Of a stretch of DNA of 64,000 nucleotides, positions 19,527 to 33,128 are shown piece after piece. The notes under the pieces were generated by a model. The model did no database searches. It saw only the letters and a program-made list of their open reading frames with translations, and had not been told where the DNA came from. Each line of letters begins with the position of its first letter. Positions within the stretch are counted from its first letter, which is position 1. This stretch comes from Shewanella sp. c952 (GTDB taxonomy: Bacteria > Pseudomonadota > Gammaproteobacteria > Enterobacterales > Shewanellaceae): positions 124,001 through 188,000 of the forward strand of contig NZ_BPEW01000004.1 of the NCBI RefSeq assembly GCF_019654975.1. The letters run 5' to 3'. Made by a program: the position numbers and the translations under genes.

Positions 19527-21458
19527 ATGAACTCATCTCTAAACTGGCTTACCGCGCCAACGATTTCGATACTTTTCTGTACTGCTTTGATGCAAGATTG
19601 TCAGGCAGCTAACCTGTCATCATCAACCATAGAGCAAACGTTAAAAACAGAGCGGCTTAGAGTTGAACCGGAGTTCTGGTGGGCGGATATGGTCAATCCA
19701 ACGCTTGAGCTGATGCTTCACGGCGACAATATCGCGTCAATGCAAGCATCCTTACGGACTCGTTCAAATATCAATATTGTTGAGCAATCAACCACAGAAA
19801 ATCCAAACTATTTATTTATAAAGTTATCTCTAAAAGATGCTAAAGCGCAGACCATCACTCTGTCGCTAACAAAAAATAAGACTCAAATGCATCAGTTTGA
19901 TTACCAAATCAAACAACGACGGACTGGTTCTAGCCAGCGACAAGGCTTCGATAACAGCGATGTCATCTACCTAATTACTCCAGATCGCTTCGTTAACGGT
20001 GATACATCAAATGATAATCACAGCTCAATGCTTGAAAAGGTCAATAGAGCAGATAAAGATGGCCGTCATGGCGGTGATATACAAGGTATTATTAATAGCC
20101 TAGATTACTTACAAAAGCTTGGTGTGACCCAGCTTTGGGTCAACCCACTGCTTGAAAATAATCAGCAGCAATACTCCTACCATGGCTACTCAACAACAGA
20201 TCACTACAAGATTGACCCGCGTTTTGGCAGTAATGCGGACTACCGTCAACTTAGTGATGCCGCTAAAGATAGGGGCATTGGGATCATCAAAGATATCATC
20301 GTCAACCATATCGGCTCTAACCATTGGTGGATGACAGATATTCCTAGCAAAACCTGGATAAATGGTTTGGCTGCTAATCAGCCCATCAATACCAGTAAGT
20401 TGCCTTTTACCACTCATCGTCGTACTACAGTACAAGACCCCTACTCTGCGCCAAGCGATTTGAGCAACTTCGTCGATGGCTGGTTTGTTGATAGCATGCC
20501 AGATTTAAACCAAACGAACGAAAAACTAGCAACCTACCTGATTCAAAACAGTATTTGGTGGGTTGAGTATGCTAATTTATCTGGGATCCGTGAAGATACC
20601 TACTCCTACGCCGATAAAGAATTTTTGGCGCAATGGTCAAAAGCAATTATGGCTGAGTACCCCAAGTTTAATATAGTAGGCGAAGAATGGACTGCGAATC
20701 CCATAACTGTCTCCTATTGGCAAGCAGGAAAAATAAACCAAGATGGCTATGTCTCCTACCTTCCAAGTCTAATGGATTTCCCACTCTACGAGACCATGCT
20801 AAAAGCCTTTAATCATCCAGAATCTTGGGACAAAGGTTTTATTGAATTATATGAGATGATGGCAAATGATGTCGTTTATGCCGACCCAACTAATCTAGTG
20901 TTATTTGAAGGCAACCACGACACCAACCGTTTATTCAGCCTTTTGGATAACAATTTATCTCGTTACAAGATGGCAATGGCGTACACATTGACGTCCAATC
21001 GTATTCCGCAGATTTTTTACGGCACAGAAGTGTTAATGCAAAGCCCGGTAGAGGGTCGCCACGACGGTGCAGTAAGAGCTGACTTCCCCGGTGGTTGGTC
21101 ATCCGACGCTAGCAATGCGATGACACAGCAGGGATTAAACTCGCAACAGTTGGACGCCCAACATTTTGTTAGTACATTACTCAATTTTAGAAAAGACTCA
21201 TCTGCCATTGCTAACGGTAAGCTGATTCATTACGTACCAGAAAACGGCGTTTATGTTTACTTTAGAGCGGATAAGACAGAAACGGTGATGGTCGTGATGA
21301 ACAAGAACGATGAGCAGATAACTCTAGATAGTGAAAGATTCAAAACACAGTTGAAAAACTTTTCAACTGCAACCGATGTGATAACAGGTCAATCGCAAAA
21401 TACCTTACATAGCTTAAAAAGCCCTGCAAACTCGGTGTTAGTACTAAGCCTAAACTAA
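19527..21458 (+). CDS. exported GH13 alpha-amylase/neopullulanase-type enzyme (SusA-like)
   Basis: 643 residues with a signal peptide (cleavage near DCQA). An N-terminal cyclomaltodextrinase-type immunoglobulin-like domain (about 35-130) is followed by a GH13 barrel from FDNSDVIYLITPDRF. The catalytic triad is Asp357 in GIREDTY, Glu386 in VGEEW and Asp465 in FEGNHD. A C-terminal beta domain completes it. This layout matches the periplasmic neopullulanase SusA of Bacteroidetes starch systems and the maltodextrin amylases of Shewanella-type loci. It should cut alpha-1,4 bonds of maltodextrins in the periplasm. It lies 40 bp upstream of a second GH13 gene. Confidence 0.9.
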   Translation: MNSSLNWLTAPTISILFCTALMQDCQAANLSSSTIEQTLKTERLRVEPEFWWADMVNPTLELMLHGDNIASMQASLRTRSNINIVEQSTTENPNYLFIKLSLKDAKAQTITLSLTKNKTQMHQFDYQIKQRRTGSSQRQGFDNSDVIYLITPDRFVNGDTSNDNHSSMLEKVNRADKDGRHGGDIQGIINSLDYLQKLGVTQLWVNPLLENNQQQYSYHGYSTTDHYKIDPRFGSNADYRQLSDAAKDRGIGIIKDIIVNHIGSNHWWMTDIPSKTWINGLAANQPINTSKLPFTTHRRTTVQDPYSAPSDLSNFVDGWFVDSMPDLNQTNEKLATYLIQNSIWWVEYANLSGIREDTYSYADKEFLAQWSKAIMAEYPKFNIVGEEWTANPITVSYWQAGKINQDGYVSYLPSLMDFPLYETMLKAFNHPESWDKGFIELYEMMANDVVYADPTNLVLFEGNHDTNRLFSLLDNNLSRYKMAMAYTLTSNRIPQIFYGTEVLMQSPVEGRHDGAVRADFPGGWSSDASNAMTQQGLNSQQLDAQHFVSTLLNFRKDSSAIANGKLIHYVPENGVYVYFRADKTETVMVVMNKNDEQITLDSERFKTQLKNFSTATDVITGQSQNTLHSLKSPANSVLVLSLN

Positions 21459-21498
21459 TCAATAAGAACAACTAAATCAATGGATAGGGTTAGATTTT

Positions 21499-23565
21499 AT
21501 GACGTTTAAAACAAAGTTGGTTGATGTATGTGGTATTAACAATGCTGTTGAAAAGAGCAAACTAAAAGTATCAAAAAGCGCGTTAATAGTCAGTCTTGTC
21601 TTACCTGCGTTTTTTGCAATCGGTTGCACAGAATCATCAACGAATAGCGACGTAAACACTGCAGAAAAAGCACCTGCAAACAAAAGCACTGTTTCGACGC
21701 ATAAACAAGTAAAGCCGGTGGTTTATCAAGTCTTCACGCGCTTGTTTGGCAACAAAAACACCACCAATCAACCGTGGGGAACAAAACAGCAAAACGGTGT
21801 TGGAAAGTTTAGTGATTTTGATAACACTGCGCTACGAAGTATTAAAGCCCTCGGTACCACCCACATTTGGTATACCGGCGTCCCCCATCATGCTTTGGTT
21901 GCTGATTATAAAACCTATGGTATTAGCGACGATGACCCAGATGTCGTTAAAGGACGCGCAGGTTCCCCTTATGCTGTAAAAGATTACTACAATGTGAACC
22001 CAGATCTTGCTGATAATGTAGAGAACAGGCTGCAAGAGTTTAAAGACTTAATCAAACGCACCCATGATAATGGTATGAAGGTCGTCATCGACATCGTGCC
22101 AAATCATGTTGCTAGAGCTTATCAATCTAACTATGGCCAACATGGCGTTAGCAGCTTCGGCGTTAATGATGACACCAGTACAAGTTATAAAAGACAAAAC
22201 AACTTCTACTATGTGGTAGACGATACTGCCAGTGAACTAACTGCAAAAGCTTTCAAAGTCCCTCAGTTAACACAAGAAAATGCACCGCTAGGTGGAGAAG
22301 CTCATCCCCTTTCCGATGGTAAATTTATTGAGTTCCCCGCGAAATGGACCGGCAATGGCTCTCGCGCAGCGCAGCCGGATGCAAATGACTGGTACGAAAC
22401 CGTGAAAATCAATTATGGTGTAAAACCAGACGGCAGTTACGACTTCCCTAGCCTGCCATCTTCACTAGCAAGTCAAGACGCTAACGTCCACTATCTGCAT
22501 TGGTTATCAATAGAAACTGAAGACAAAGCACTGCCTTTTAAAGACAAACGCATTCCAGACTCTTGGGTGAAATTCAAACAAATCACTCAATTTTGGCTAG
22601 CTCAGGGTATCGATGGTTTTCGTTATGACATGGCAGAGATGGTGCCAGTGGCATTTTGGAGTTATCTAAACGCCAATATTAAACACACAAACCCTGAGGC
22701 GTTCTTATTAGCTGAAGTCTATAATCCAGCGCTTTATCGAGACTATATTCGACTCGGGAAAATGGACTATCTGTACGATAAAGTGGATATGTACGATACG
22801 CTAAAAGCCATTATTCAAGGGCAAGAAAGCACAGCCGCTATCGCAGAGAAACAAGCCTTAGTCAGTGATATCTCATCAAACATGCTGCATTTTTTGGAAA
22901 ACCATGATGAGCAAAGGATTGCTAGTGCCGATTTTGCTGATGATGCTTTTGCGGCACTGCCCGCTATGGTAGTTTCAACTACCATAAGCTCCGCCCCTAC
23001 TCTTATTTATTTCGGACAAGATGTTGGTGAAAAAGCAGCAGTGAAAGCAGGTTTTGGTAGTCCTACCCGTACCAGTATTTTCGATTATATCGGCGTTCCA
23101 GCCCATCAGCGCTACATGAACAACGGCAAATTTGATGGCGGACAATCAACGGCAAAAGAACTTGAACTAAGACGATATTACACAAAGCTGCTCAACCTAA
23201 GCCATAGCGCATCGGCACTAACAGGTGAGTATGTCGAACTCGATAGTTTTAACCGCGCAAACAAAGTGATTGGCTATGATGAGCAAACATTTGCATTTAG
23301 CCGATACAATGCTGAGCAGCAATTAATTATTGTGAGTAACTTTAGCCAGCAACACGGTAAGACGTTTACCTTACAACTACCACATTCACTCATCTCGAAG
23401 TGGAAGATTAACGCTAAGCAAATAGCGCTGGTGGACCTTTTAAATGAACCTCAAAAGTCATTAAGCGGCCAGGAGTACACACTGACAGTTATTGATGATA
23501 AGGGAGCCGTCGCTTTGACCCTTGCGCCTAATGAGTCAAAAGTACTGATGGTTAATCATCACTAA
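21499..23565 (+). CDS. GH13 alpha-amylase lipoprotein
   Basis: 688 residues. An unusually long positively charged leader precedes a hydrophobic segment (SALIVSLVLPAFFAIGC) with a lipobox Cys at residue 43. This suggests a membrane-anchored lipoprotein. The GH13 barrel runs from VVYQVFTRLFGN. The triad is Asp377 in GFRYDMAEM, Glu406 in LLAEVYNP and Asp470 in LENHDEQR. A C-terminal beta domain ends LAPNESKVLMV. It is divergent from the neighbouring SusA-like enzyme and so probably has a different product profile. It is likely cotranscribed with it (40-bp gap) and is followed by a hairpin at 23596. Confidence 0.89.
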   Translation: MTFKTKLVDVCGINNAVEKSKLKVSKSALIVSLVLPAFFAIGCTESSTNSDVNTAEKAPANKSTVSTHKQVKPVVYQVFTRLFGNKNTTNQPWGTKQQNGVGKFSDFDNTALRSIKALGTTHIWYTGVPHHALVADYKTYGISDDDPDVVKGRAGSPYAVKDYYNVNPDLADNVENRLQEFKDLIKRTHDNGMKVVIDIVPNHVARAYQSNYGQHGVSSFGVNDDTSTSYKRQNNFYYVVDDTASELTAKAFKVPQLTQENAPLGGEAHPLSDGKFIEFPAKWTGNGSRAAQPDANDWYETVKINYGVKPDGSYDFPSLPSSLASQDANVHYLHWLSIETEDKALPFKDKRIPDSWVKFKQITQFWLAQGIDGFRYDMAEMVPVAFWSYLNANIKHTNPEAFLLAEVYNPALYRDYIRLGKMDYLYDKVDMYDTLKAIIQGQESTAAIAEKQALVSDISSNMLHFLENHDEQRIASADFADDAFAALPAMVVSTTISSAPTLIYFGQDVGEKAAVKAGFGSPTRTSIFDYIGVPAHQRYMNNGKFDGGQSTAKELELRRYYTKLLNLSHSASALTGEYVELDSFNRANKVIGYDEQTFAFSRYNAEQQLIIVSNFSQQHGKTFTLQLPHSLISKWKINAKQIALVDLLNEPQKSLSGQEYTLTVIDDKGAVALTLAPNESKVLMVNHH

Positions 23566-23595
23566 ATACCAATATCGATACCAATAAAAAGTAAT

Positions 23596-23621
23596 ACAAA
23601 GCCCGTATAGACGGGCTTTGT
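23596..23621 (+). terminator. hairpin after the GH13 lipoprotein gene
   Basis: Perfect 11-bp stem ACAAAGCCCGT / ACGGGCTTTGT with loop ATAG, followed by TCATTT. The T tract is weak, so termination may be partial. Confidence 0.65.
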
Positions 23622-23676
23622 CATTTACCTGAAAAGCTAGAAATAACTTTACGGCTATACAACTAACTTGCCCATC

Positions 23677-23690
23677 TGAATACGTATGCA
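23677..23690. promoter_or_regulatory. LacI-type operator, site 3
   Basis: TGAATACGTATGCA is identical to site 2. It lies 110 bp upstream of the GH97 gene start and just upstream of a plausible promoter (TTGCAG with TAGTAT about 18 bp later), so GH97 is probably a separately controlled member of the same regulon. Confidence 0.8.
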
Positions 23691-23799
23691 AGCCATTGCA
23701 GCAAGTTTAAGGTTCAACTTAGTATGCTAACAGCAGCATAACTTCAATAAAACTTGCACGACAGAACTATAACAATAAATTAAACACAGGGATGGCACC

Positions 23800-25929
23800 A
23801 TGTACTCACTGCGCTCTACATTACTTTCGTACCATGATAACGCCGCAATACAAAAAAAGACTTTCCACGCTAAAAAGCGTTCATTATCTAAGCTGGCGAC
23901 CATCACTTCAATAATACTAGGTACGGCGTTAAGCAATGTTGTAGTGGCTAAAACGGTTTCAGTAACCTCTCCCGACAAACAAATAGTGGTGTCTATTTTT
24001 GATGACAATGGCCAGCCAGAATATAACGTTGAGTTTCATGGAAAAAAGGTCATCACCGACTCACGTCTTGGATTGGTATTTAAATCATTAGGTGAATTGG
24101 CTCAAGGCTTTACCATCGAGAAAAGCAAATTAGGCAACACTCAAAATCGTTGGCAGCAACCATGGGGTGAGCAAGAGTGGATAGAAGACAATTACAACCA
24201 AGCTAACATCACCCTGAGCAACGGCAAATATAAGCTTAAACTGCATTTTAAAGCCTTTGATGACGGTATCGGCTTTCGATATGAGCTGCCAAAACAAGCT
24301 GAGCTAAGTCAGTTAACCATCACCAATGAATTAACAGAATTTTCTGTTCCAATGCCCGAAAAAGCGCAAGCCTGGTGGATCCCAGCAAGAGGCTGGAATC
24401 GTTATGAGTACCTATACAGCAACAGCGCTTTAGACAAAGTGACTAATGTACACACTCCCTTCACTTTTAGGCTTAATTCTGGTGTGCACATGAGTATTCA
24501 CGAAGCTGCACTGGTCGATTACGCTTCGATGACTCTAAATCAACGTCGTAGCGGCAAATTAAAAGCTGATCTCACTCCCTGGTCTGACGGCAGTTTGGTC
24601 AAAACTCAAGCGGGCTTTTTCTCACCATGGCGTACTATTCAGATAAGCGATGACGCCGCAGGTTTATTAAATTCGCACTTAATTCTGAATTTGAATGAAC
24701 CCAATAAACTTGGCGATGTAAGCTGGGTAGAGCCAGGGAAATATGTCGGTATTTGGTGGGGGATGCACCTTAATGAGAATACTTGGGGCTCAGGTGAAAA
24801 GCACGGCGCCACCACCAGCGAAACCAAGCGTTATATGGATTTTGCAGCGAATAATGGCTTCGATGGTGTGTTAGTAGAAGGCTGGAATCATGGTTGGGAT
24901 GGCAGCTGGTTCCATAATGGTGACGTGTTCAGTTTTACTCAACCCTACTCCGATTTTGACCTTGATGCGGTGAGTCATTACGGCAACCAAAAAGGGGTTA
25001 AGCTAATTGGCCATCACGAAACCTCTGGCTCAGTGACAAACTACCGAAATCAGATGCAAGACGCCTACGATCTTTACCAACAGCATGGCGTCAGTCAGAT
25101 AAAGACCGGCTATGTCGCTGATGGCGGCGATATTAAGCGTATAGATGAAAACGGTATTACTCGCCATGAATGGCATGATGGTCAATTTATGGCGAACGAA
25201 TATCTATATAGCGTTCAGGAGGCAGCTAAACGTCAGCTCAGTATTAACACTCACGAACCGATAAAAGATACCGGACTGCGCCGTACCTATCCAAACTGGA
25301 TTTCTCGTGAAGGTGCCCGTGGACAAGAGTTTAACGCCTGGGGCACACCGCCGAACAATCCGGCACACACCACAACGCTTGCCTTTACCCGCATGTTAGC
25401 TGGGCCAATGGATTTCACCCCAGGTATATTCGACCTTGCCCCAAAAGGACTTGATGCGATTAATCGAGTACAAACCACTTTAACCAAGCAACTCGCTCTG
25501 TATGTCGTACTTTATAGCCCTATTCAGATGGCAGCGGATCTTCCTAGAAACTACCTTGAACGGCAAGATGCGTTTCAGTTCATCAAAGATGTACCCACCG
25601 ATTGGCATCAAAGTATCGCCTTGGCAGGTGAAGTTGGCGAGTACGTGGTATTTGCGCGACAAGAACGAGCTGGAAAAAGTGACGGAAAAGATTGGTACCT
25701 AGGTGCAATTACCGACGACAACGCCAGAGAAATTGAAGTAAAACTTGATTTTTTAACCCAAGGAATGCGTTACGAGGCGCAGATCTACCGTGATGGTAAA
25801 GGCGCTAACTGGCAAAATAATCCTTATGACTATGTCATCGAGACCAAACTAGTAAACGCTGCAGATATACTCACACTAAAGCTTGCTTCAAGCGGCGGAA
25901 CCGCAATTCGTTTTAAGGCTGTTGATTAG
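23800..25929 (+). CDS. susB: GH97 alpha-glucosidase (SusB-like)
   Basis: 709 residues with a long N-region and a signal segment (LATITSIILGTALSNVVVA). An N-terminal beta-sandwich (about 50-320) precedes a (beta/alpha)8 barrel. The conserved glutamates are Glu486 in NTHEPIKDTG, Glu504 in SREGARG and Glu510 in RGQEFNAWG. Their spacing (18 and 6) equals that of SusB Glu508, Glu526 and Glu532. The HHET glutamate (about 407) probably matches the SusB base Glu439. A calcium-dependent inverting alpha-glucosidase is therefore expected, releasing glucose from maltodextrins in the periplasm. It has its own LacI-type operator upstream and a strong terminator downstream. Confidence 0.93.
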   Translation: MYSLRSTLLSYHDNAAIQKKTFHAKKRSLSKLATITSIILGTALSNVVVAKTVSVTSPDKQIVVSIFDDNGQPEYNVEFHGKKVITDSRLGLVFKSLGELAQGFTIEKSKLGNTQNRWQQPWGEQEWIEDNYNQANITLSNGKYKLKLHFKAFDDGIGFRYELPKQAELSQLTITNELTEFSVPMPEKAQAWWIPARGWNRYEYLYSNSALDKVTNVHTPFTFRLNSGVHMSIHEAALVDYASMTLNQRRSGKLKADLTPWSDGSLVKTQAGFFSPWRTIQISDDAAGLLNSHLILNLNEPNKLGDVSWVEPGKYVGIWWGMHLNENTWGSGEKHGATTSETKRYMDFAANNGFDGVLVEGWNHGWDGSWFHNGDVFSFTQPYSDFDLDAVSHYGNQKGVKLIGHHETSGSVTNYRNQMQDAYDLYQQHGVSQIKTGYVADGGDIKRIDENGITRHEWHDGQFMANEYLYSVQEAAKRQLSINTHEPIKDTGLRRTYPNWISREGARGQEFNAWGTPPNNPAHTTTLAFTRMLAGPMDFTPGIFDLAPKGLDAINRVQTTLTKQLALYVVLYSPIQMAADLPRNYLERQDAFQFIKDVPTDWHQSIALAGEVGEYVVFARQERAGKSDGKDWYLGAITDDNAREIEVKLDFLTQGMRYEAQIYRDGKGANWQNNPYDYVIETKLVNAADILTLKLASSGGTAIRFKAVD

Positions 25930-25961
25930 AAAAAACTCGCCTTTTCTATGGCATAAACTGA

Positions 25962-25987
25962 AAAAAGCCCTTAATTAAGGGCTTTTT
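25962..25987. terminator. bidirectional terminator between GH97 and the malate-synthase-like gene
   Basis: A 26-bp perfect palindrome with AAAAAGCCCTTAA and its complement, flanked by A and T tracts. It sits between convergent genes and serves both. Confidence 0.85.
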
Positions 25988-26012
25988 CTTTTACTCACTT
26001 TCTTAGCAAGAT

Positions 26013-26525
26013 TTAGCGCTTTAGCTGGTAGTCGCTACCATCTTTCGCGGTAAACTCTTGATCGAGTACCGATGAGGCAACCACTGTATTTTCAACATTG
26101 ACCAGGCTTATCCAGTACTGGTGACCTTCAACTAAGATATCCTCAATGTTGGCACAATCTTCTGCGCCCCTTTCACTTTGTCTATCAAAAGTTAGCTCCA
26201 CATGCACGCCATTATCTTTAAGCAATATTGCGGTAGGCTCACTCTTATGACCGTTAAGCGCCACAAACTGTTTCGGACAACGTAAGCCCGTTTGGCTACC
26301 GTCTTTCATAAACACTAGCAGTTGTTGGTAGTAGACAACATAGCTGCAAGCATCCTTGTGCGATCCTGTGGCTAGCGGAAACTTGTCATCCAAAAATATT
26401 TTGGCACAAGGTGTTGAGGTATCATTTGCTGCCTGACGGACAACATTCACATCAACAAAATCCGAACCAATATATACATTATTCTCGTGGTTGTTTGCAG
26501 TGTTATTGATTGTTGATATATCCAT
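26013..26525 (-). CDS. stand-alone malate synthase G alpha/beta-domain homologue
   Basis: 170 residues, no signal peptide, with a GGACAGGACA ribosome-site region before the ATG. From about residue 43 the sequence follows malate synthase G (GlcB). Matching parts are LDDKFPLATGSHKD, GLRCPKQFV, PTAILLKDNGVHVEL and EDCANIEDILVEG. The C-terminal FTAKDGSDYQLKR resembles the later YTAxxG...LxGR segment of GlcB. The TIM-barrel stretch between these segments is missing, as are the N-terminal clasp, most of the barrel and the C-terminal plug. The product therefore corresponds to the discontinuous alpha/beta domain only (723-residue parent), and I see no full catalytic set. Function unknown. It is divergent from the ScfR-type regulator and ends at its own terminator, so it looks like a maintained gene. 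The alignment is from memory, not computed. Confidence 0.78.
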   Translation of the reverse strand: MDISTINNTANNHENNVYIGSDFVDVNVVRQAANDTSTPCAKIFLDDKFPLATGSHKDACSYVVYYQQLLVFMKDGSQTGLRCPKQFVALNGHKSEPTAILLKDNGVHVELTFDRQSERGAEDCANIEDILVEGHQYWISLVNVENTVVASSVLDQEFTAKDGSDYQLKR

Positions 26526-26573
26526 TGTCCTGTCCTCATTCGTTCCTAAAATAGGTCACTCGCCGTTACTTGC

Positions 26574-26589
26574 TTTGAAAGCTTTCAAA
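26574..26589. promoter_or_regulatory. 16-bp palindrome in the divergent promoter
   Basis: TTTGAAAGCTTTCAAA is a perfect palindrome, about 49 bp before the malate-synthase-like gene and 93 bp before the regulator gene. It is a candidate operator for a dimeric regulator. Confidence 0.55.
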
Positions 26590-26656
26590 AAACTGTTTAT
26601 TTCCTGACTGCTTGATTTGTAGTCTAGTGTAAAAATCGCTACAATTTCACAATAAA

Positions 26657-26684
26657 AATTTTACAATGTGAATTTTACAATATG
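26657..26684. repeat. 14-bp tandem repeat overlapping a start codon
   Basis: AATTTTACAATGTG is followed directly by AATTTTACAATATG, with a single mismatch. The second copy ends in the ATG of the regulator gene. An imperfect third unit (CAATTTCACAATAA) lies just upstream. No Shine-Dalgarno precedes the ATG. Likely autoregulatory binding sites placed over the transcription or translation start. Confidence 0.65.
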
Positions 26685-28217
26685 AAAAGTAATCAGAGCC
26701 TGATCAGAAAGTCACATTTTCTCGGTACCAAGATTAGAAATCTGCGTAAGAGAAACCACCTTACAATGGAAGATCTTTCAGCCCGCTGTGTGCGTGTCGA
26801 TCCTGAGTCAGCCCCCTCTGTATCTTACCTTTCGATGATTGAACGGGGTAAACGAGTCCCTAGTGCTGGGATGCTAGCGGTGATTGCCGCAGTGTTTCAA
26901 AAAGAGGTTGATTGGTTTCTCGATGACGTTCCTGAAGACAACGCAATAACACCAGAAAAAGGTCGACGCGGTGGTATAAGTGGCATGGCTTTAGAGCCGA
27001 GTTTTCTGTTTTCGAGTGATATTTTACAGATTGCCATCCCCGAAATGCTATCACAAACAGGAACTACCGGTCGTGAATTTGCCCATTTATTGATCCGCGC
27101 ACACCAAGAACATCATCAAAACCACTTCCCAGATCTTGAGCGCGCAGCTGAAGAAGTTGGTCAAAAACGGCTTCCTTTGGCATTAGATGACTTAAAAGAT
27201 ATTGCCAAATCCCTTGGGTTAAAACTGAAATGGGTCGATAGAACCCCGCAAGAAGTAGAAGATGAGATGGGGGTCAATACTGCCCATGTGGTGACTTCGT
27301 TCTTTGAGCCGCCATCAACTATCTATCTCAACAAGATGCTCAAGTCGTTCCCAACAAGGCTTAAATATGACCTTGCGGTACATATTGGTCACTGCGTTTT
27401 ACACAATAAAGACGGTTTAAAGTGCGTGTTAACAGCCGGAAGAAGACATACCGCGGCCCACGATGAGTTAACAACTCCTGCATCATCGACTTTGAATGCC
27501 CAAGATATTTTGCATGCATGGCGTGATTTCGAGTCTAGTTTCTTTGCTGGTGCATTGCTTTGTCCAAAAGTGCCCTTCAGACAATTACTAGACAGACACG
27601 GCTATGAGATAAACGTCAACAAAGCGGTTGGTGTGTCGGCATCAGTTGCAATGCGCCGAATGACCGTCGTTTCTCCCTACCCGCATTGGCATTACTTTGA
27701 TGCCTACGCACCTGGCAAATTGAAAGCGGTTTATCGCGGTAACGGCATTCCTCTGCCTTGGGGCAATATGCGGGTGGTAGAAGATCCTTGCCAGCATTGG
27801 GCCGTATTTAGAATGATCAACGAACCCAAAGTTGGTACCTCAGCTCAAATATCAATTCTCGAGGTTGCTGAAGAGCCACGGATCTACTGCTGTGAGTCAG
27901 TAAAGGTAGAAGATATGGCGGGAAACAATCACGTGCTTTGCGCAGGAATCGATCTCAATCCTGCTATTGATGCCCAAGGTGGTGATTCTGCGTCTATTGC
28001 CACAGAGCTGAAACAGATCTGTGCCGAAAATAGTGGCTCAGTAGAAATGCCAACGCATATTAAGAAAAACCTATTAAGCGTGGCAAAAATCCTTAACATT
28101 AATTGGATAGAACGCGGTATTGACAATGAAGCGCGGCTTATTTGCTCTAGAGGCGCCGTGTGCCCAAGACAACCAAGTTGCTATAAAGCCGGTAAAGCCC
28201 TTTGTGACGCAGAGTAG
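26682..28217 (+). CDS. XRE-family regulator, ScfR/DUF3612-like
   Basis: 511 residues. An N-terminal helix-turn-helix (about 12-85) contains LGTKIRNLRKRNHLTMEDLS and SYLSMIERGKRVPSAGMLA. A large C-terminal region follows, with TIYLNKMLKSFPTRLKYDLA and HIGHCVLH. This layout is that of short-chain fatty-acyl (ScfR/RamB-like) regulators and, I believe, DUF3612. Near the C-terminus there are several Cys (CSRGAVCPRQPSC) that could bind a metal or cluster. Such regulators commonly control acetate, glyoxylate or propionate genes in response to acyl-CoA. The start codon lies inside a tandem repeat with no visible ribosome site, which may mean leaderless translation. Convergent with the small lipoprotein gene. 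Confidence 0.8.
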   Translation: MKSNQSLIRKSHFLGTKIRNLRKRNHLTMEDLSARCVRVDPESAPSVSYLSMIERGKRVPSAGMLAVIAAVFQKEVDWFLDDVPEDNAITPEKGRRGGISGMALEPSFLFSSDILQIAIPEMLSQTGTTGREFAHLLIRAHQEHHQNHFPDLERAAEEVGQKRLPLALDDLKDIAKSLGLKLKWVDRTPQEVEDEMGVNTAHVVTSFFEPPSTIYLNKMLKSFPTRLKYDLAVHIGHCVLHNKDGLKCVLTAGRRHTAAHDELTTPASSTLNAQDILHAWRDFESSFFAGALLCPKVPFRQLLDRHGYEINVNKAVGVSASVAMRRMTVVSPYPHWHYFDAYAPGKLKAVYRGNGIPLPWGNMRVVEDPCQHWAVFRMINEPKVGTSAQISILEVAEEPRIYCCESVKVEDMAGNNHVLCAGIDLNPAIDAQGGDSASIATELKQICAENSGSVEMPTHIKKNLLSVAKILNINWIERGIDNEARLICSRGAVCPRQPSCYKAGKALCDAE

Positions 28218-28218
28218 C

Positions 28219-28578
28219 TTAACGATTAAGTATGCCCATTGCAGTTGCATGCACAATGATGCACTGCTCTGAATAGCCAAATTCAATTGCCAGCGTATCG
28301 TCGATAATCATATCAGCAAGTAAGACGGTACCGGCAATTTTTTGCTTAGCTTGCTCAATTGCCATCAAAGTCGACACGCCTTCATCGATAGGCAGTAAAT
28401 ATAAAAACTGTGTTTGACAGCTTTTACCTACGACAGCACCTAATTCAACAAGATCTACAGACTGAGTTACACCACGATATGTCTCAGAGGTAAATGAACC
28501 GTGATTTGCAATGTTACAACCAGTCAAGATTGAAAAGCACATAAAAACAAAAACTTGTATTTTCATCATTTTAGTCAT
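28219..28578 (-). CDS. small lipoprotein, TRL-like
   Basis: 119 residues from the ATG at 28578, with GGA about eight bases upstream; a GTG at 28584 is also in frame. A lipobox LTGC follows a hydrophobic segment (VFVFMCFSILTGC). The mature part, with VVGKSCQTQFLYLLPIDEG and a late Cys in YSEQCIIVHATA, faintly recalls the TRL-like small lipoproteins. Function is unknown. It ends 1 bp from the regulator gene stop, and its promoter faces the operator at 28628, so it may share control with the maltose transporter. Confidence 0.65.
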   Translation of the reverse strand: MTKMMKIQVFVFMCFSILTGCNIANHGSFTSETYRGVTQSVDLVELGAVVGKSCQTQFLYLLPIDEGVSTLMAIEQAKQKIAGTVLLADMIIDDTLAIEFGYSEQCIIVHATAMGILNR

Positions 28579-28919
28579 CGACACAATTCCGTTAAATGTA
28601 AGTGTTGTTATTGTTAAATATACAGCATGAATACGTATGTATTCTGTTGTGCCAAAATCAAGCTCAAGGGTAACATGGCTACCTACTTTTATTCATGCTC
28701 TGCTTGTGGTGTGGTCGGTAAAAGTATGGTCGTTTCTAACGGTTTGGCCGTTAGTTTTACCACTCGATAACAAGCTTTAGCCCAACAACGCAAACACGTT
28801 TGGTTATCGCTTGATTAGCATAGGTATAGGGTAACGGCCAGCAGAGGTCGCTAGTTGTTACCCATTTTTTTAAAGATTCGACCAACAATAATAATTCTAA
28901 CACCGAAAAGGTCTGGTTA
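28579..28919. other. divergent intergenic region upstream of the maltose transporter
   Basis: About 340 bp between the small lipoprotein (minus) and the MFS transporter (plus). It holds LacI-type operator site 4. A 31-codon reading around 28674 is too short and unlike any family I know, and it was not called. AAGGTC before the transporter ATG is a fair ribosome site. Confidence 0.5.
28628..28641. promoter_or_regulatory. LacI-type operator, site 4
   Basis: TGAATACGTATGTA shares the ATACGTAT core of sites 1-3 with one change in the right arm. It lies about 280 bp upstream of the maltose transporter gene and 50 bp upstream of the divergent lipoprotein gene. Confidence 0.75.
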
Positions 28920-30476
28920 ATGTCTGAGAACAACCCTCAACAACAAAAGCCACAGCTCAGCTTCTGGCAAATATTTAATATGTGTTTTGGATTTTTGGGC
29001 ATTCAATTTGGCTTTGCACTGCAAAATGCCAATGTAAGCCGAATATTCCAAACCCTTGGCGCATCGATTGATGATATCCCAATTCTGTGGATTGCCGCGC
29101 CTTTAACCGGACTCATTGTACAGCCTATCATCGGTTACCTGAGTGATAACACCTGGGGAAGATGGGGAAGAAGGCGACCATTCTTCGTGCTTGGTGCGGT
29201 TTGTACGACCTTAGCGCTTTTTGTTATGCCCCACTCGCCTGCTCTATGGATCGCTGCTGGCATGCTATGGATTATGGATGCATCGATTAACATCGCTATG
29301 GAACCATTTAGAGCATTTGTTGGCGATAACCTGCCCAATAAGCAACGCACTCTTGGTTATGCGATGCAAAGCTTCTTTATTGGTATTGGCGCAGTCATCG
29401 CATCAGCGCTACCCTATATTTTAAGTAATTATTTTGATGTGAGTAATACTGCGCCCGCTGGTGAGATTGCTGATTCAGTACGTTACGCTTTCTATTTTGG
29501 CGGTGCTGTTCTTTTCCTTGCTGTAATGTGGACCGTCATTTCAACAAAAGAGTACTCACCTGAAGAGTTAGCTGAATTTGAAAAGCACACTGACGAAAGT
29601 CCGATTCAAACAACGGGTCAACGTAGCGCAACACAGTACCGAAACGGAAGTATCCTCTGGGCAAGTATAGGTAGCATTTTTACTGCCACTATTTGGTTGT
29701 GTGAATGGGATAAGCAGCTATTTATTCTCAGTATCGGAATATTAAGTTTTGGTCCATTGCAGCTATACTGTGCAACCAAATTAAACCAACTAAAGCGTCA
29801 TGCTGAAACAACAGAACAGTTAAGTACAAACCGTGAAAAGCAGAGCTTAATCTTTTGCGTGGTCGATGACCTATTCAATATGCCCAAAGCGATGCATCAA
29901 CTCGCTTTAGTGCAATTTTTCTCATGGTTTGCACTATTTGCCATGTGGATCTATACCACAGCAGCCGTGACTGACTATCACTATGGTAGCCAAGATGTAT
30001 TATCAAAAGCTTATAACGATGGTGCTGACTGGGTCGGTTTACTCTTTGCAGTTTATAACGGTTTTGCAGCAATCGCGGCCATTTTCATCCCTATTCTCGC
30101 GAAAAAACTGGGTTTAAAAGTGACTCACTGCATCAACCTGTTCTGTGGTGGTCTCGGCCTTATTAGTTTTAAGTTCATCAGCGATCCCACCTTATTATGG
30201 CTGCCAATGATAGGCATAGGTATCGCTTGGGCTTCAATACTCTCTGTCCCATACGCCCTGCTCGCAAATACATTACCAGCAAAGAAAATGGGCGTTTACA
30301 TGGGAATATTTAACTTCTTTATCGTCATTCCACAATTATTGGCAGCAAGTGTGCTTGGTCTTATCGTCAGAGTGCTTTTCGATGGCCAGCCGATTTACGC
30401 ACTGATCACCGGTGGCGCGCTAATGATGGTAGCAGGTATAGCTGTGTTAAGAGTCAATGTCGACAATAGCCAGTGA
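28920..30476 (+). CDS. malT: MFS maltose/maltodextrin transporter (GPH/SLC45-like)
   Basis: 518 residues, about 12 helices with a long central cytoplasmic loop (about 200-310). Helix 1 to 2 contains MCFGFLGIQFGFALQNANVS. The GRWGRRRPFFVLGA loop and YLSDNTW motif are typical of SLC45-like proton/sugar symporters, including bacterial maltose transporters. It should import maltose or short maltodextrins across the inner membrane for the cytoplasmic GH13 enzyme. It lies downstream of a LacI-type operator and only 93 bp before the GH15 start at 30570, so the two are probably one transcript. The symbol follows Shewanella usage for a transporter and is unrelated to the E. coli MalT activator. Confidence 0.85.
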   Translation: MSENNPQQQKPQLSFWQIFNMCFGFLGIQFGFALQNANVSRIFQTLGASIDDIPILWIAAPLTGLIVQPIIGYLSDNTWGRWGRRRPFFVLGAVCTTLALFVMPHSPALWIAAGMLWIMDASINIAMEPFRAFVGDNLPNKQRTLGYAMQSFFIGIGAVIASALPYILSNYFDVSNTAPAGEIADSVRYAFYFGGAVLFLAVMWTVISTKEYSPEELAEFEKHTDESPIQTTGQRSATQYRNGSILWASIGSIFTATIWLCEWDKQLFILSIGILSFGPLQLYCATKLNQLKRHAETTEQLSTNREKQSLIFCVVDDLFNMPKAMHQLALVQFFSWFALFAMWIYTTAAVTDYHYGSQDVLSKAYNDGADWVGLLFAVYNGFAAIAAIFIPILAKKLGLKVTHCINLFCGGLGLISFKFISDPTLLWLPMIGIGIAWASILSVPYALLANTLPAKKMGVYMGIFNFFIVIPQLLAASVLGLIVRVLFDGQPIYALITGGALMMVAGIAVLRVNVDNSQ

Positions 30477-30569
30477 TCCTTGCTGAAAATCAAACTCGCA
30501 AAAAGCGTTAACAATACACTTTGTGTTTTACGCAAAATAAATAAAAAAGCATCATATTTGGGGAAGCAA

Positions 30570-33128
30570 ATGGTAGGTCCAATCACATTAAAACAAACAG
30601 TACTTACCGCCGCAGTGAGTATGGCGCTGTTACTAGCCGGCTGTAACAATCAACATACAGAAAGTAATACTGAAAATAGTACCGCAAAAAGTACTGAGCT
30701 AAATTCTGTTAAAAGTGAAACAACACAACTTAGCACTGGTAATCAGCGAAACTCTATTGCACCGGGAATTCCTGGAAGCGACCCAACATGGGCTTTTGCA
30801 GGAAAAACCGGCATTGGCACCTCTTATGAGCCCTATACAGACGGCAGTTATCAAGATAGCGCTGAAAACCCTATCAGTCGGGTTTGGTTCTCGCTTGCCC
30901 AAGGTATTATCACTGAAACCATGTTTGGTCTAATCCACAACGCACAACTGAAAGAGATGCAATTTGTTGTAACCGGTGACGGTTTTGTTGATACAGAAAA
31001 AGATGATACTGAACACTCTATCGAGTATTTACACACTGATGAGTTCGGTAGACCACTATCACTTGCCTATAAGCTTATTAATAAAGATAAAGGCGGCAAA
31101 TACCAAATAGAAAAACATATTTTTACTGATCCTGACCGCGATACACTAATGATGAAGGTGGTCTTTACTGCATTTGAATCCGGGATCACCCCATACCTAA
31201 TGGTTAACCCGCATATCGACAATAGTGGTGCAAACGATATTGCTCGGTATGACACTGCTAATAAAGTGTTTACCGTAAACACCACAGATAAAAACAGCAG
31301 TGTCATGAGTGTTAAATCAAGTGTTGATTTTAGCCAAGCAAGTGTTGGCTTTGTTGGCATCTCTGATGGATTAACCGATCTAAAAAATAACGGTGATATG
31401 AACTGGCAGTACAGCGCAACCTCCGATGAAAACCAAGGAGGAAATGTCGTGCTCACTGCCCAGTACCCGAGCCCAATAGTAAAAGCCGGCGAGCAACAAG
31501 CTAAGATAAGTTTTGATCTCGTCATCGGTTTTGGCAGCGATAAGCAAATCAGTTTAGCTAATACAGACGCGACCCTAGCAGCAGGCAGTGACAAAGTACT
31601 CGCAGCCTTTAACGGTGAAGGAGAAGCATTGGGTTGGCAAGATTATCTAAGCTCACTCGATGCATTAAATAACATGGTTAATACCACTACTGATAATGGC
31701 AAGTTGTTATACGCCAGTGCATTAGTGTTAAAAGCGCAAGAAGACAAGACCCATGCTGGCGCGTTAATCGCCTCACTTTCTAATCCATGGGGAGATACGG
31801 TTTCTGCAAAAGTTGGCAGTACCGGCTACAAAGCCGTTTGGCCACGGGACTTTTATCAATGCGCGATGGCCTTTCTAGCAATGGGCGACAGCCAAACGCC
31901 AAAAACAGCGTTTGAGTATTTAGAGAAAGTTCAGGTAACTGAAAATACTCCGGGTTATACCGGGACACCAGGTTGGTTTTTACAGAAAACCCATGTAGAT
32001 GGACAGATTGAATGGGTCGGTGTGCAGTTAGATCAGACTGCAATGCCTATCATGCTCGGCTGGAAGTTATGGCAAGCTGGGGTATTAAGCGATACTGAAA
32101 TAAGCCATTGGTATAAAAAGATGCTCAAACCTGCCGCAGAGTTTTTGGTCAATGGTGGTGAAGTTAACTTAGATTGGAATCACACCAATATAACACCACT
32201 AAAAACTCAGCAAGAACGCTGGGAGGAGCAGCAAGGTTACTCACCTTCAACCACCGCCGCAGTAATATCAGGTCTAATCAGCGCCAGTGATATAGCAGAT
32301 CATACAGGCGATGAAAAAGCGGCCAAACGTTATTTAAACACCGCCAAAATGATGCAGAGTAAAATAGCAAAACTAATGGTGACCACAAGTGGGTTACTGG
32401 CAGCATCAAGCCGCTCTAATAGTGATTCAAACCAAACTGAAACCCTACCCTATTTTGTGCGTTTAGCGCCAAACGGCGAACCAAACCTTGACACTAAGCT
32501 CGGTGACAACAATGGTAGAGATGGCCTTGATCAACGCCTTATTCTAGACGGAGGTTTTTTGGAACTGGTTCGCTACGGCGTTACTAATGCAAATGACAAG
32601 ACAGTGAGTAATACAGTTGCACTGATAGACGATGAAAAACTAGAGCATAACTTAAGAGTTAAATACCAGTTTAAAGCTAAAGATGGGTCACTTATTCCAG
32701 GCTTTAGACGTTACGGTAATGATGGTTACGGTGAAGATGAAGTCAACGGTGACAGCTACGCTGAGAAAGGTCAAAACAGTGCCGGGCAACGAGGTCGTGT
32801 TTGGCCATTTTTTACCGGAGAACGTGGCCATTTTGAGCTTGCTAAAGCCCTTAAGAGCAACAGTCTTGATAGTGACTCCCATCAAAAGCTAATCAATACC
32901 TATGTGCAAGGAATGGAAACTTTTGCCAATGAAGGGTTAATGCTACCGGAACAAGTATGGGACGGCGTTGGCAACCCTACGCGTTACCAGTATAAGCCAG
33001 CTCAAGGCACTAACTCTGCCACACCACTTGCTTGGACTCACGCAGAATACATTAAGCTGGTACGCTCAATGTCAGATAAAAAGGTATGGGATAATTACTC
33101 AATTGTCACTGACAAACTCAAGCAGTAG
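30570..33128 (+). CDS. GH15 glucoamylase lipoprotein
   Basis: 852 residues from the ATG at 30570, which has GGGGAA about six bases upstream and immediately begins a lipoprotein signal (VLTAAVSMALLLAGC). A longer TTG reading from 30480 lacks both. An N-terminal glucodextranase-type beta domain (about 55-330; GIPGSDPTWAFAGKTGIGTS) precedes the (alpha/alpha)6 barrel. Barrel motifs are VWPRDFYQ, LDQTAMPI and WEEQQGYSPST (general acid Glu552 or Glu553). GQRGRVWPFFTGERGHF and LPEQVWDG (base, about Glu794) follow. It should release glucose from maltodextrin ends at the periplasmic face of a membrane. It follows the maltose transporter gene and ends at a strong terminator. Confidence 0.92.
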   Translation: MVGPITLKQTVLTAAVSMALLLAGCNNQHTESNTENSTAKSTELNSVKSETTQLSTGNQRNSIAPGIPGSDPTWAFAGKTGIGTSYEPYTDGSYQDSAENPISRVWFSLAQGIITETMFGLIHNAQLKEMQFVVTGDGFVDTEKDDTEHSIEYLHTDEFGRPLSLAYKLINKDKGGKYQIEKHIFTDPDRDTLMMKVVFTAFESGITPYLMVNPHIDNSGANDIARYDTANKVFTVNTTDKNSSVMSVKSSVDFSQASVGFVGISDGLTDLKNNGDMNWQYSATSDENQGGNVVLTAQYPSPIVKAGEQQAKISFDLVIGFGSDKQISLANTDATLAAGSDKVLAAFNGEGEALGWQDYLSSLDALNNMVNTTTDNGKLLYASALVLKAQEDKTHAGALIASLSNPWGDTVSAKVGSTGYKAVWPRDFYQCAMAFLAMGDSQTPKTAFEYLEKVQVTENTPGYTGTPGWFLQKTHVDGQIEWVGVQLDQTAMPIMLGWKLWQAGVLSDTEISHWYKKMLKPAAEFLVNGGEVNLDWNHTNITPLKTQQERWEEQQGYSPSTTAAVISGLISASDIADHTGDEKAAKRYLNTAKMMQSKIAKLMVTTSGLLAASSRSNSDSNQTETLPYFVRLAPNGEPNLDTKLGDNNGRDGLDQRLILDGGFLELVRYGVTNANDKTVSNTVALIDDEKLEHNLRVKYQFKAKDGSLIPGFRRYGNDGYGEDEVNGDSYAEKGQNSAGQRGRVWPFFTGERGHFELAKALKSNSLDSDSHQKLINTYVQGMETFANEGLMLPEQVWDGVGNPTRYQYKPAQGTNSATPLAWTHAEYIKLVRSMSDKKVWDNYSIVTDKLKQ

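Follow-up and report, generated by a model that had tools for sequence, protein, structure and literature searches.

A stand-alone malate synthase G insertion domain is the steady genomic partner of a DUF3612 regulator in Shewanella and its relatives and may serve as its co-regulator

In Shewanella sp. c952, the alpha/beta insertion domain of malate synthase G (MSG) is encoded as a stand-alone protein by a small gene that is divergent from the gene of a DUF3612 transcriptional regulator, and across the sampled order the regulator and its MSG-derived partner occurred in exactly the same genomes. An enzyme remnant kept in this way beside one gene-control protein suggests a role in gene regulation. 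We lean toward the view that the pruned domain was retained as a stand-alone co-regulator of DUF3612, to which it would bind, once its catalysis had become redundant.

In the window, the whole 64,000-nucleotide stretch of DNA that was analyzed, the small gene encodes a protein of 170 aa on the minus strand at 26013..26525, identified as an ORF and by matches to NF006511 and PF20658. An earlier note on this DNA had described the ORF, and it does run from ATG to stop, with the strand corrected to minus (26525→26013); the plus-strand translation of 26013-26525 held nine stops. The separate ribosome site claimed for the gene was spotted by eye as an AGGA-type site 5' of the ATG. Its claimed terminator was present as a terminator-like hairpin (25962..25987, unstranded) between the small gene and a converging glycosidase gene, and it was weak, one being found versus 0.9 expected in shuffled sequences. 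A sigma-70 promoter scan was uninformative (three found versus 2.1 expected). The homology of the first segment to MSG was confirmed, with Pfam MSG_insertion (PF20658) matching residues 41-103 (E 9.3e-21; 74.3 bits, over the gathering score of 24.8), phmmer aligning residues 35-151 with malate synthase G chains of solved structure (best E 2e-21), and 38% identity to GlcB of the same genome over residues 40-152. The whole protein (residues 1-169) matched positions 1-185 of the 190 in NF006511/PRK08951, named 'malate synthase' (E 1.5e-67; 227.2 bits, passing the curated cut-off of 173 bits), and fell below the cut-off of TIGR01345, the malate synthase G equivalog (79.5 versus 989 bits; profile 169-279 of 721). 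PF20658 was the sole Pfam match; MS_N, TIM barrel and MS_C were not recognised by Pfam. Since the TIM barrel and the C-terminal domain, where the catalytic residues lie, are missing, catalysis by the small protein is impossible. AlphaFold2 run on five sequences gave a pLDDT of 35 for the small protein; a fold shared with the MSG domain is predicted from sequence homology. The nearest named relatives were S. kaireitica (98%), S. gelidimarina (92%), S. abyssi (90%), and S. pneumatophori (72%). The gene pair lies within a polysaccharide-utilisation cluster (window 19527-33128) whose members, named by eye, include two amylase-like, GH97-like, MFS transporter, and glucoamylase-like proteins, a setting shared only by S. 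kaireitica (L003) among these four relatives.

Four parts of the protein, all on the minus strand, could be related to MSG. Residues 1-25 (26451..26525) are a relic of the MSG N-terminus, matched at the level of the family and degenerate in the window copy; residues 41-133 (26127..26405) form the first segment of the alpha/beta insertion domain, as seen by Pfam, phmmer and alignment; residues 134-145 (GHQYWISLVNVE; 26091..26126) align as a relic of the intervening barrel piece; and residues 156-168 (QEFTAKDGSDYQL; 26022..26060) are the second segment, by alignment to linked MSG, that is, MSG encoded beside DUF3612. The resemblance of the C-terminus to a later MSG segment was upheld, FTAKDGSDYQLKR aligning with YTAQDGSDYRLSGRAL of a full-length linked MSG (L114). 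Absence of the barrel piece between the two segments was largely correct, with a relic remaining (HQYWISLV versus YRNWLGLM in MSG), so that the domain-precise pruning of the earlier note is near rather than exact: about 25 N-terminal MSG residues, at the family level, and the barrel-piece relic are retained. Across 10 diverse small proteins, W138 and S140 of the barrel-piece relic and A160, K161, G163, D165 and Y166 of the second segment were invariant. A profile of the first 32 residues of the small proteins was searched against 686 background proteins and 14 linked and 21 unlinked MSG-type proteins. Its best four matches were N-terminal regions, one from a full-length linked MSG and three from half-pruned intermediates (E 1e-6 to 5e-4); the other linked MSGs matched at E 0.2-0.7, mixed with background from 0.65. 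From these N-terminal matches, the small gene was probably shortened from within, keeping its original start. In the E. coli enzyme, both MSG segments fold as one alpha/beta domain. For M. tuberculosis MSG, a passage of PMC5207166 limits the inserted domain to residues 135-265, and PMC3112382, in part, describes it as missing from isoforms A and H.

The regulator gene (26682..28217, plus strand) encodes 511 aa, in which Pfam identified HTH_3 (E 2.8e-9), a weak IrrE-like region (Peptidase_M78, E 0.0025, under cut-off) and DUF3612 (PF12268, E 1.6e-106). Converging on it, a 121-aa lipoprotein-like ORF (window 28219-28584, minus strand) recurs in five loci (cluster 7) and matched no Pfam or NCBIfam family over cut-off. 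To follow the pair across genomes, we drew 146 genomes from the family and 394 from the order, 507 of them distinct by handle numbering, calling DUF3612 over its cut-off and small or linked proteins at 120 bits or more. The gap that divides these from ordinary MSG at 120 bits is narrow (123 versus 119.8); the frame lengths near it, 158-172 versus 734 aa, still keep the two separable. DUF3612 was present in 183 of the 507 genomes, and the identical 183 held a small protein or a DUF3612-linked MSG. The earlier note had proposed looking for the same short protein beside this regulator elsewhere, and the two genes were divergent neighbors in 182 of the 183 genomes, 25 of these having a full-length linked MSG. 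In the sole exception (G132), 10 bp separate the start of the small gene from the end of its contig, and DUF3612 and its operator are at the end of another contig. The partner was small in 154 genomes, full-length in 25, half-pruned in three (334, 342 and 403 aa in G230, G407 and G490; MSG_insertion alone was seen by Pfam in the two scanned), and split in one (frames of 453 and 294 aa in G365). Within the sampled order, then, the constant element of DUF3612's partner is the alpha/beta domain.

Seventeen further small copies were located away from DUF3612, always in genomes that also have an adjacent copy, and a single tandem copy was found, in G494. Among genomes of the same genus, 117 of 123 had both genes and six had neither. 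At eight of the 10 full-length linked loci inspected, MSG was directly followed by a gene of cluster 3, a putative isocitrate lyase from Pfam scans of one linked-locus member and one member from the c952 genome. Side-by-side DUF3612 and small genes were also found in plasmid records of V. parahaemolyticus and V. tritonius; the plasmid record of Vibrio sp. THAF190c carries no annotation at the matching region. Two matches in phage records were both annotated as malate synthase G, and a scan of viral contigs found no relatives of the small protein. In one Shewanella genome (G143:C1:636438-636961), DUF3612 was read in two overlapping frames, possibly through a frameshift or sequencing error, and the small gene matched in full. 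Two other Shewanella small proteins were divergent (L082 of G108, 133.6 bits; L067 of G014, 123 bits), and the DUF3612 match beside them was still strong (304.8 and 352 bits, respectively).

Outside the order, the class sample (n = 274, the c952 genome included) contained four other genomes with DUF3612. In G762, isocitrate lyase came after a 137-aa small protein that was divergent from DUF3612; in G672, DUF3612 faced isocitrate lyase and then an ordinary-type MSG; in G523 (L214), its divergent neighbor was a malate synthase the size of type A, with isocitrate lyase next, and the alpha/beta domain was not found at this locus; in G749, the locus was interrupted by a contig end. All four had at least one pair of operator repeats with 0-2 mismatches. 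The arrangements in G523 and G672 mean that DUF3612 can exist without an alpha/beta partner, which is therefore not universal. Together, the class-level loci support DUF3612 as a glyoxylate-shunt regulator.

Between the two genes, three direct repeats of AATTTYACA with a 14-bp period form a predicted operator of 37 bp (26643..26679, plus strand), a candidate DUF3612 binding site. In the window it reads AATTTCACA-N5-AATTTTACA-N5-AATTTTACA, lies upstream of DUF3612 and ends 2 bp before its ATG. A predicted operator was located between the pair in 58 of 58 loci, which are not independent because some are near-identical. Over its 27 fixed positions, 57 loci showed two mismatches or fewer, versus 9-14 at best in shuffled regions (one per locus); the miss, L106, reflects an over-extended start, and the operator is there with one mismatch. 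A two-repeat search of 18 genomes allowing two mismatches recovered the operator at the pair in all 18 and at all seven extra small-gene copies in these genomes (six distant, one tandem). No further match at one mismatch or fewer was found in the c952 genome. A match there with two mismatches (C3:254439, beside a gene that is YbaB-like by eye) looks like chance, given that the pattern read backwards yields five matches in this genome versus three.

The operator was also found upstream of aceBA, with 0-1 mismatch, in all eight genomes of group f21, apparently Vibrio, that have the high-scoring aceB type (833-876 bits; sites L174:5883-5905 and L186-L192). This DUF3612-type operator at f21 aceBA makes a predicted glyoxylate-shunt regulon. 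No operator at two mismatches or fewer was detected in the other 13 aceB regions of about 1 kb (nine Shewanella, two f15, one f6, one f21), nor in the aceB region of the c952 genome, which brings Shewanella to 10. With that one f21 region (G165) counted in, it was absent from the second f21 aceB type in the four genomes checked (G165, G239, G340, and G478). G266, where no type-A malate synthase scored over cut-off, still has the operator near the same LysR gene. Parts of a Shewanella regulon study (PMC3223726) assign aceBA to five other regulators and list an SO0072 regulon as 'ABC efflux transporter'; no match of the latter to DUF3612 was made.

The tree of the alpha/beta domain (84 rows) separated 63 small and linked proteins from 21 unlinked MSGs (SH-aLRT 99). 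Rooted on the latter, the small proteins and the three intermediates formed a clade, again at 99, nested in full-length linked MSG. In a second tree of 70 rows, for which 16 near-duplicate or long small-protein rows were dropped and two class-level rows added, both groupings received 100/99. Here, the DUF3612-linked MSG of the distant G672 grouped with unlinked MSGs, and the small protein of the distant G762 fell among small proteins on a long branch. The small proteins as a clade apart from the intermediates were weakly resolved (83 and 86/41). The tree, synteny, the shared operator and the shared N-terminus support the small gene as a pruned descendant of an MSG gene that was once divergent beside DUF3612.

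Malate synthases were surveyed in 57 genomes, comprising 35 with the small form, three with intermediates, 15 with full-length linked MSG, one with the split form and three Shewanella without the pair. All 38 pruned genomes contained another malate synthase, either a type A that passed the cut-off or a full-length G without linkage to DUF3612, which would have made pruning possible. The linked enzyme was the only malate synthase in nine of the 15 full-length linked genomes (in one of the nine, G390, it scores just under the MSG cut-off), and no other malate synthase was found in G365 with its split MSG. The isocitrate lyase family was matched in 57 of 57 genomes, by a model that also matches PrpB-like frames of about 300 aa. 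The full-length glcB that the earlier note had suggested seeking in the c952 genome is present (G000:C4:90153-92303), flanked by isocitrate lyase and a LysR regulator, as is a malate synthase A (G000:C47:22304-23836).

Purifying selection on the small gene was evident from dN/dS values of 0.037-0.13 in nine Shewanella pairs (dS 0.02-1.2), which are not independent, L004 and L072 being near-identical, and of 0.18 in the single f21 pair in range. For the regulator, dN/dS was 0.016-0.020 in three pairs and 0.10 in one. Among full-length linked MSGs (38 pairs from 10 sequences), the first alpha/beta segment was 0.60 identical where the rest was 0.60-0.70 identical; at the same identity of the rest, it was 0.48-0.49 identical in unlinked MSGs (156 pairs from 21 sequences). 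Seven signature residues (49 F, 68 H, 71 A, 73 F, 80 G, 89 A, and 94 K) recurred in most of the small and linked proteins but in few unlinked MSGs. The window copy has four of the seven and departs with Q68, V71 and M73. Positions 159 and 166 were also flagged, covered by just eight and three of the 21 unlinked rows, respectively.

Expression of a likely family member has been reported. Parts of PMC10014275 describe a V. vulnificus 'glcB', VV2_1647 ('malate synthase-related'), whose transcript rises with aceA and aceB in stationary phase and whose protein, in proteomics cited there, is less abundant in a stressosome mutant. The VV2_1647 primers matched f21 small-gene loci with three to four mismatches each, both in the same genes (e.g., L047 and L039) and spanning 79 bp end to end; one forward-primer match (L114, four mismatches) fell in the locus of a linked full-length MSG. 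These matches to f21 small genes make VV2_1647 very probably the small protein.

If the domain is a co-regulator, the glyoxylate shunt would be controlled by DUF3612 through binding to the AATTTYACA triple repeat, and the alpha/beta domain would contact DUF3612 or present metabolic state to it. A linked full-length MSG would then be a 'trigger enzyme' reporting to its own regulator through this domain. Where another malate synthase took over catalysis, the clasp, barrel and C-terminal domain would be lost and the alpha/beta domain kept, and the small gene, under control of the DUF3612 operator, would complete a feedback loop. Of the uses floated in the earlier note, partnership with the neighboring regulator gained the most support (co-occurrence, synteny, operator, tree, and dN/dS); operator binding by DUF3612, its physical contact with the small protein, the sign of regulation and a ligand are what we infer beyond these. 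A wider claim, to which we give rather less than even credence, is that the MSG insertion domain is a transcription-factor docking module in one large clade, with linked MSGs as trigger enzymes that signal glyoxylate-shunt activity to DUF3612 and the small protein as their surviving signaling half. Several observations speak against a co-regulator: the pairing breaks in G523 and G672, 17 small copies lie away from DUF3612, the window copy is off the signature at three of seven positions, and aceB in 10 Shewanella genomes has no upstream operator with two mismatches or fewer. In the main rival, the small protein is a plain target of DUF3612 and an effector on the shunt enzymes: it would work downstream, binding isocitrate lyase or malate synthase A to tune glyoxylate-shunt flux, and would leave the regulator untouched. 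Synteny and a shared operator are likewise compatible with such a regulator-target pair, and the same operator on aceBA in eight f21 genomes, its retention at extra small copies away from the regulator (7/7 checked), and the occurrence of isocitrate lyase family matches (57/57) and of a malate synthase in pruned genomes (38/38) all favor it. We nevertheless regard it as unlikely, because linked MSG, itself the enzyme, shows extra constraint on its alpha/beta domain and because the constant neighbor is the regulator, not aceBA.

Further from the evidence, and improbable in our estimate, is a small-molecule sensor or buffer working alone, for example on glyoxylate or acyl-CoA. It draws on eight polar residues (H56, Y62, D75, H108, E110, D129, K161, and D165) that were invariant in 10 diverse small proteins, but H56, Y62, H108, E110 and D129 were nearly as conserved in unlinked MSG (0.95-1.00) and may thus be structural. 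The earlier note had also offered an inhibitor that forms a complex. With MSG as its target, this would suit a small protein that is an MSG domain itself in a genome with a full MSG; yet 23 of 35 small-protein genomes tested lacked full-length MSG, so that MSG cannot be its general target. Inhibition of GlcB was thereby ruled out as a general role, and we hold an inhibitor or assembly partner of full-length MSG to be highly improbable. A decaying remnant without function would agree with descent from an enzyme gene made redundant, with lengths of 150-221 aa among 50 small ORFs and with the divergent copies in G014 and G108. One stop lay inside 31 of 117 Shewanella matches, and in the window this is the gene's own stop. 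Decay is nonetheless hardly credible: a pseudogene was rejected on dN/dS of 0.037-0.18, an open small ORF was called in 24 of 25 Shewanella loci (the 25th, G014, being displaced by a longer overlapping ORF), duplicated copies keep the operator, and parts of PMC10014275 report transcript and protein in V. vulnificus, for a gene putatively identified here through its primers. The contention that this is not a random truncation was thus sustained by a domain-level MSG remnant, a conserved neighborhood, purifying selection and an intact frame.

These loci present a natural deletion series beside one regulator and operator, from the full enzyme through half-pruned intermediates to the domain alone. 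To our knowledge, no function has been assigned to the MSG inserted domain, and the series offers a concrete, testable role for it. For a large group of marine bacteria it points to a predicted glyoxylate-shunt regulator, and the label 'malate synthase' can be corrected on a protein found in 117 of 123 same-genus genomes sampled. The small-protein family is already known, as a label only: NF006511/PRK08951 (190 positions) covers the same short proteins across Shewanella and the named Vibrio plasmid records, its name is misleading for a protein without barrel or C-terminal domain, and the model is silent on regulator, operator and origin. A literature search, with most subscription journals outside its scope, found no paper naming DUF3612 or PRK08951 and none on the module, the origin of the small protein or the operator.

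The regulator had been called ScfR-type in the earlier note; a similar architecture was found, and the defining motif and the RamB equivalog model were not matched. ScfR/IsaR proteins (RamB, PrpR, and PccR), which regulate acyl-CoA assimilation and are characterised by binding of acyl-CoA and a [4Fe4S] cluster, resemble DUF3612 in their HTH, weak IrrE-like region and cysteine-rich C-terminus, and in being divergent from glyoxylate-cycle genes with repeated operator boxes. According to passages of PMC10370305 and PMC6765138, members such as RamB act on glyoxylate-cycle genes through divergent promoters that carry repeated boxes, and the latter gives C-X2-C-X4-C as the defining motif. Unlike them, DUF3612 has three boxes with a 14-bp period, and sequence similarity was detected at the HTH level only. 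Its C-terminus carried C-X5-C-X5-C in 62 of 62 aligned regulators and no C-X2-C-X4-C, which ruled out formal ScfR membership, and it scored 12.5 bits against the RamB equivalog model (cut-off 700). C36, C370, C404, C447, C488, C494 and C500 were invariant in all 62, which suggests a metal or Fe-S site. By analogy, DUF3612 would work like ScfR without being classed as one. The small protein is homologous to the GlcB alpha/beta domain PF20658 (PDB 1d8c, 5oas) and lacks a recognised MS_N, TIM barrel and MS_C. Yeast Gal3 belongs to the trigger enzymes and enzyme-derived regulators. Citrate synthase CitA in Caulobacter (PMC7083601) is another example. In both systems an enzyme or its inactive relative is used in regulation, as proposed here; unlike CitA and Gal3, the small protein retains nothing but an insertion domain that is not catalytic, and its presumed contact with the regulator is drawn from genomic association.
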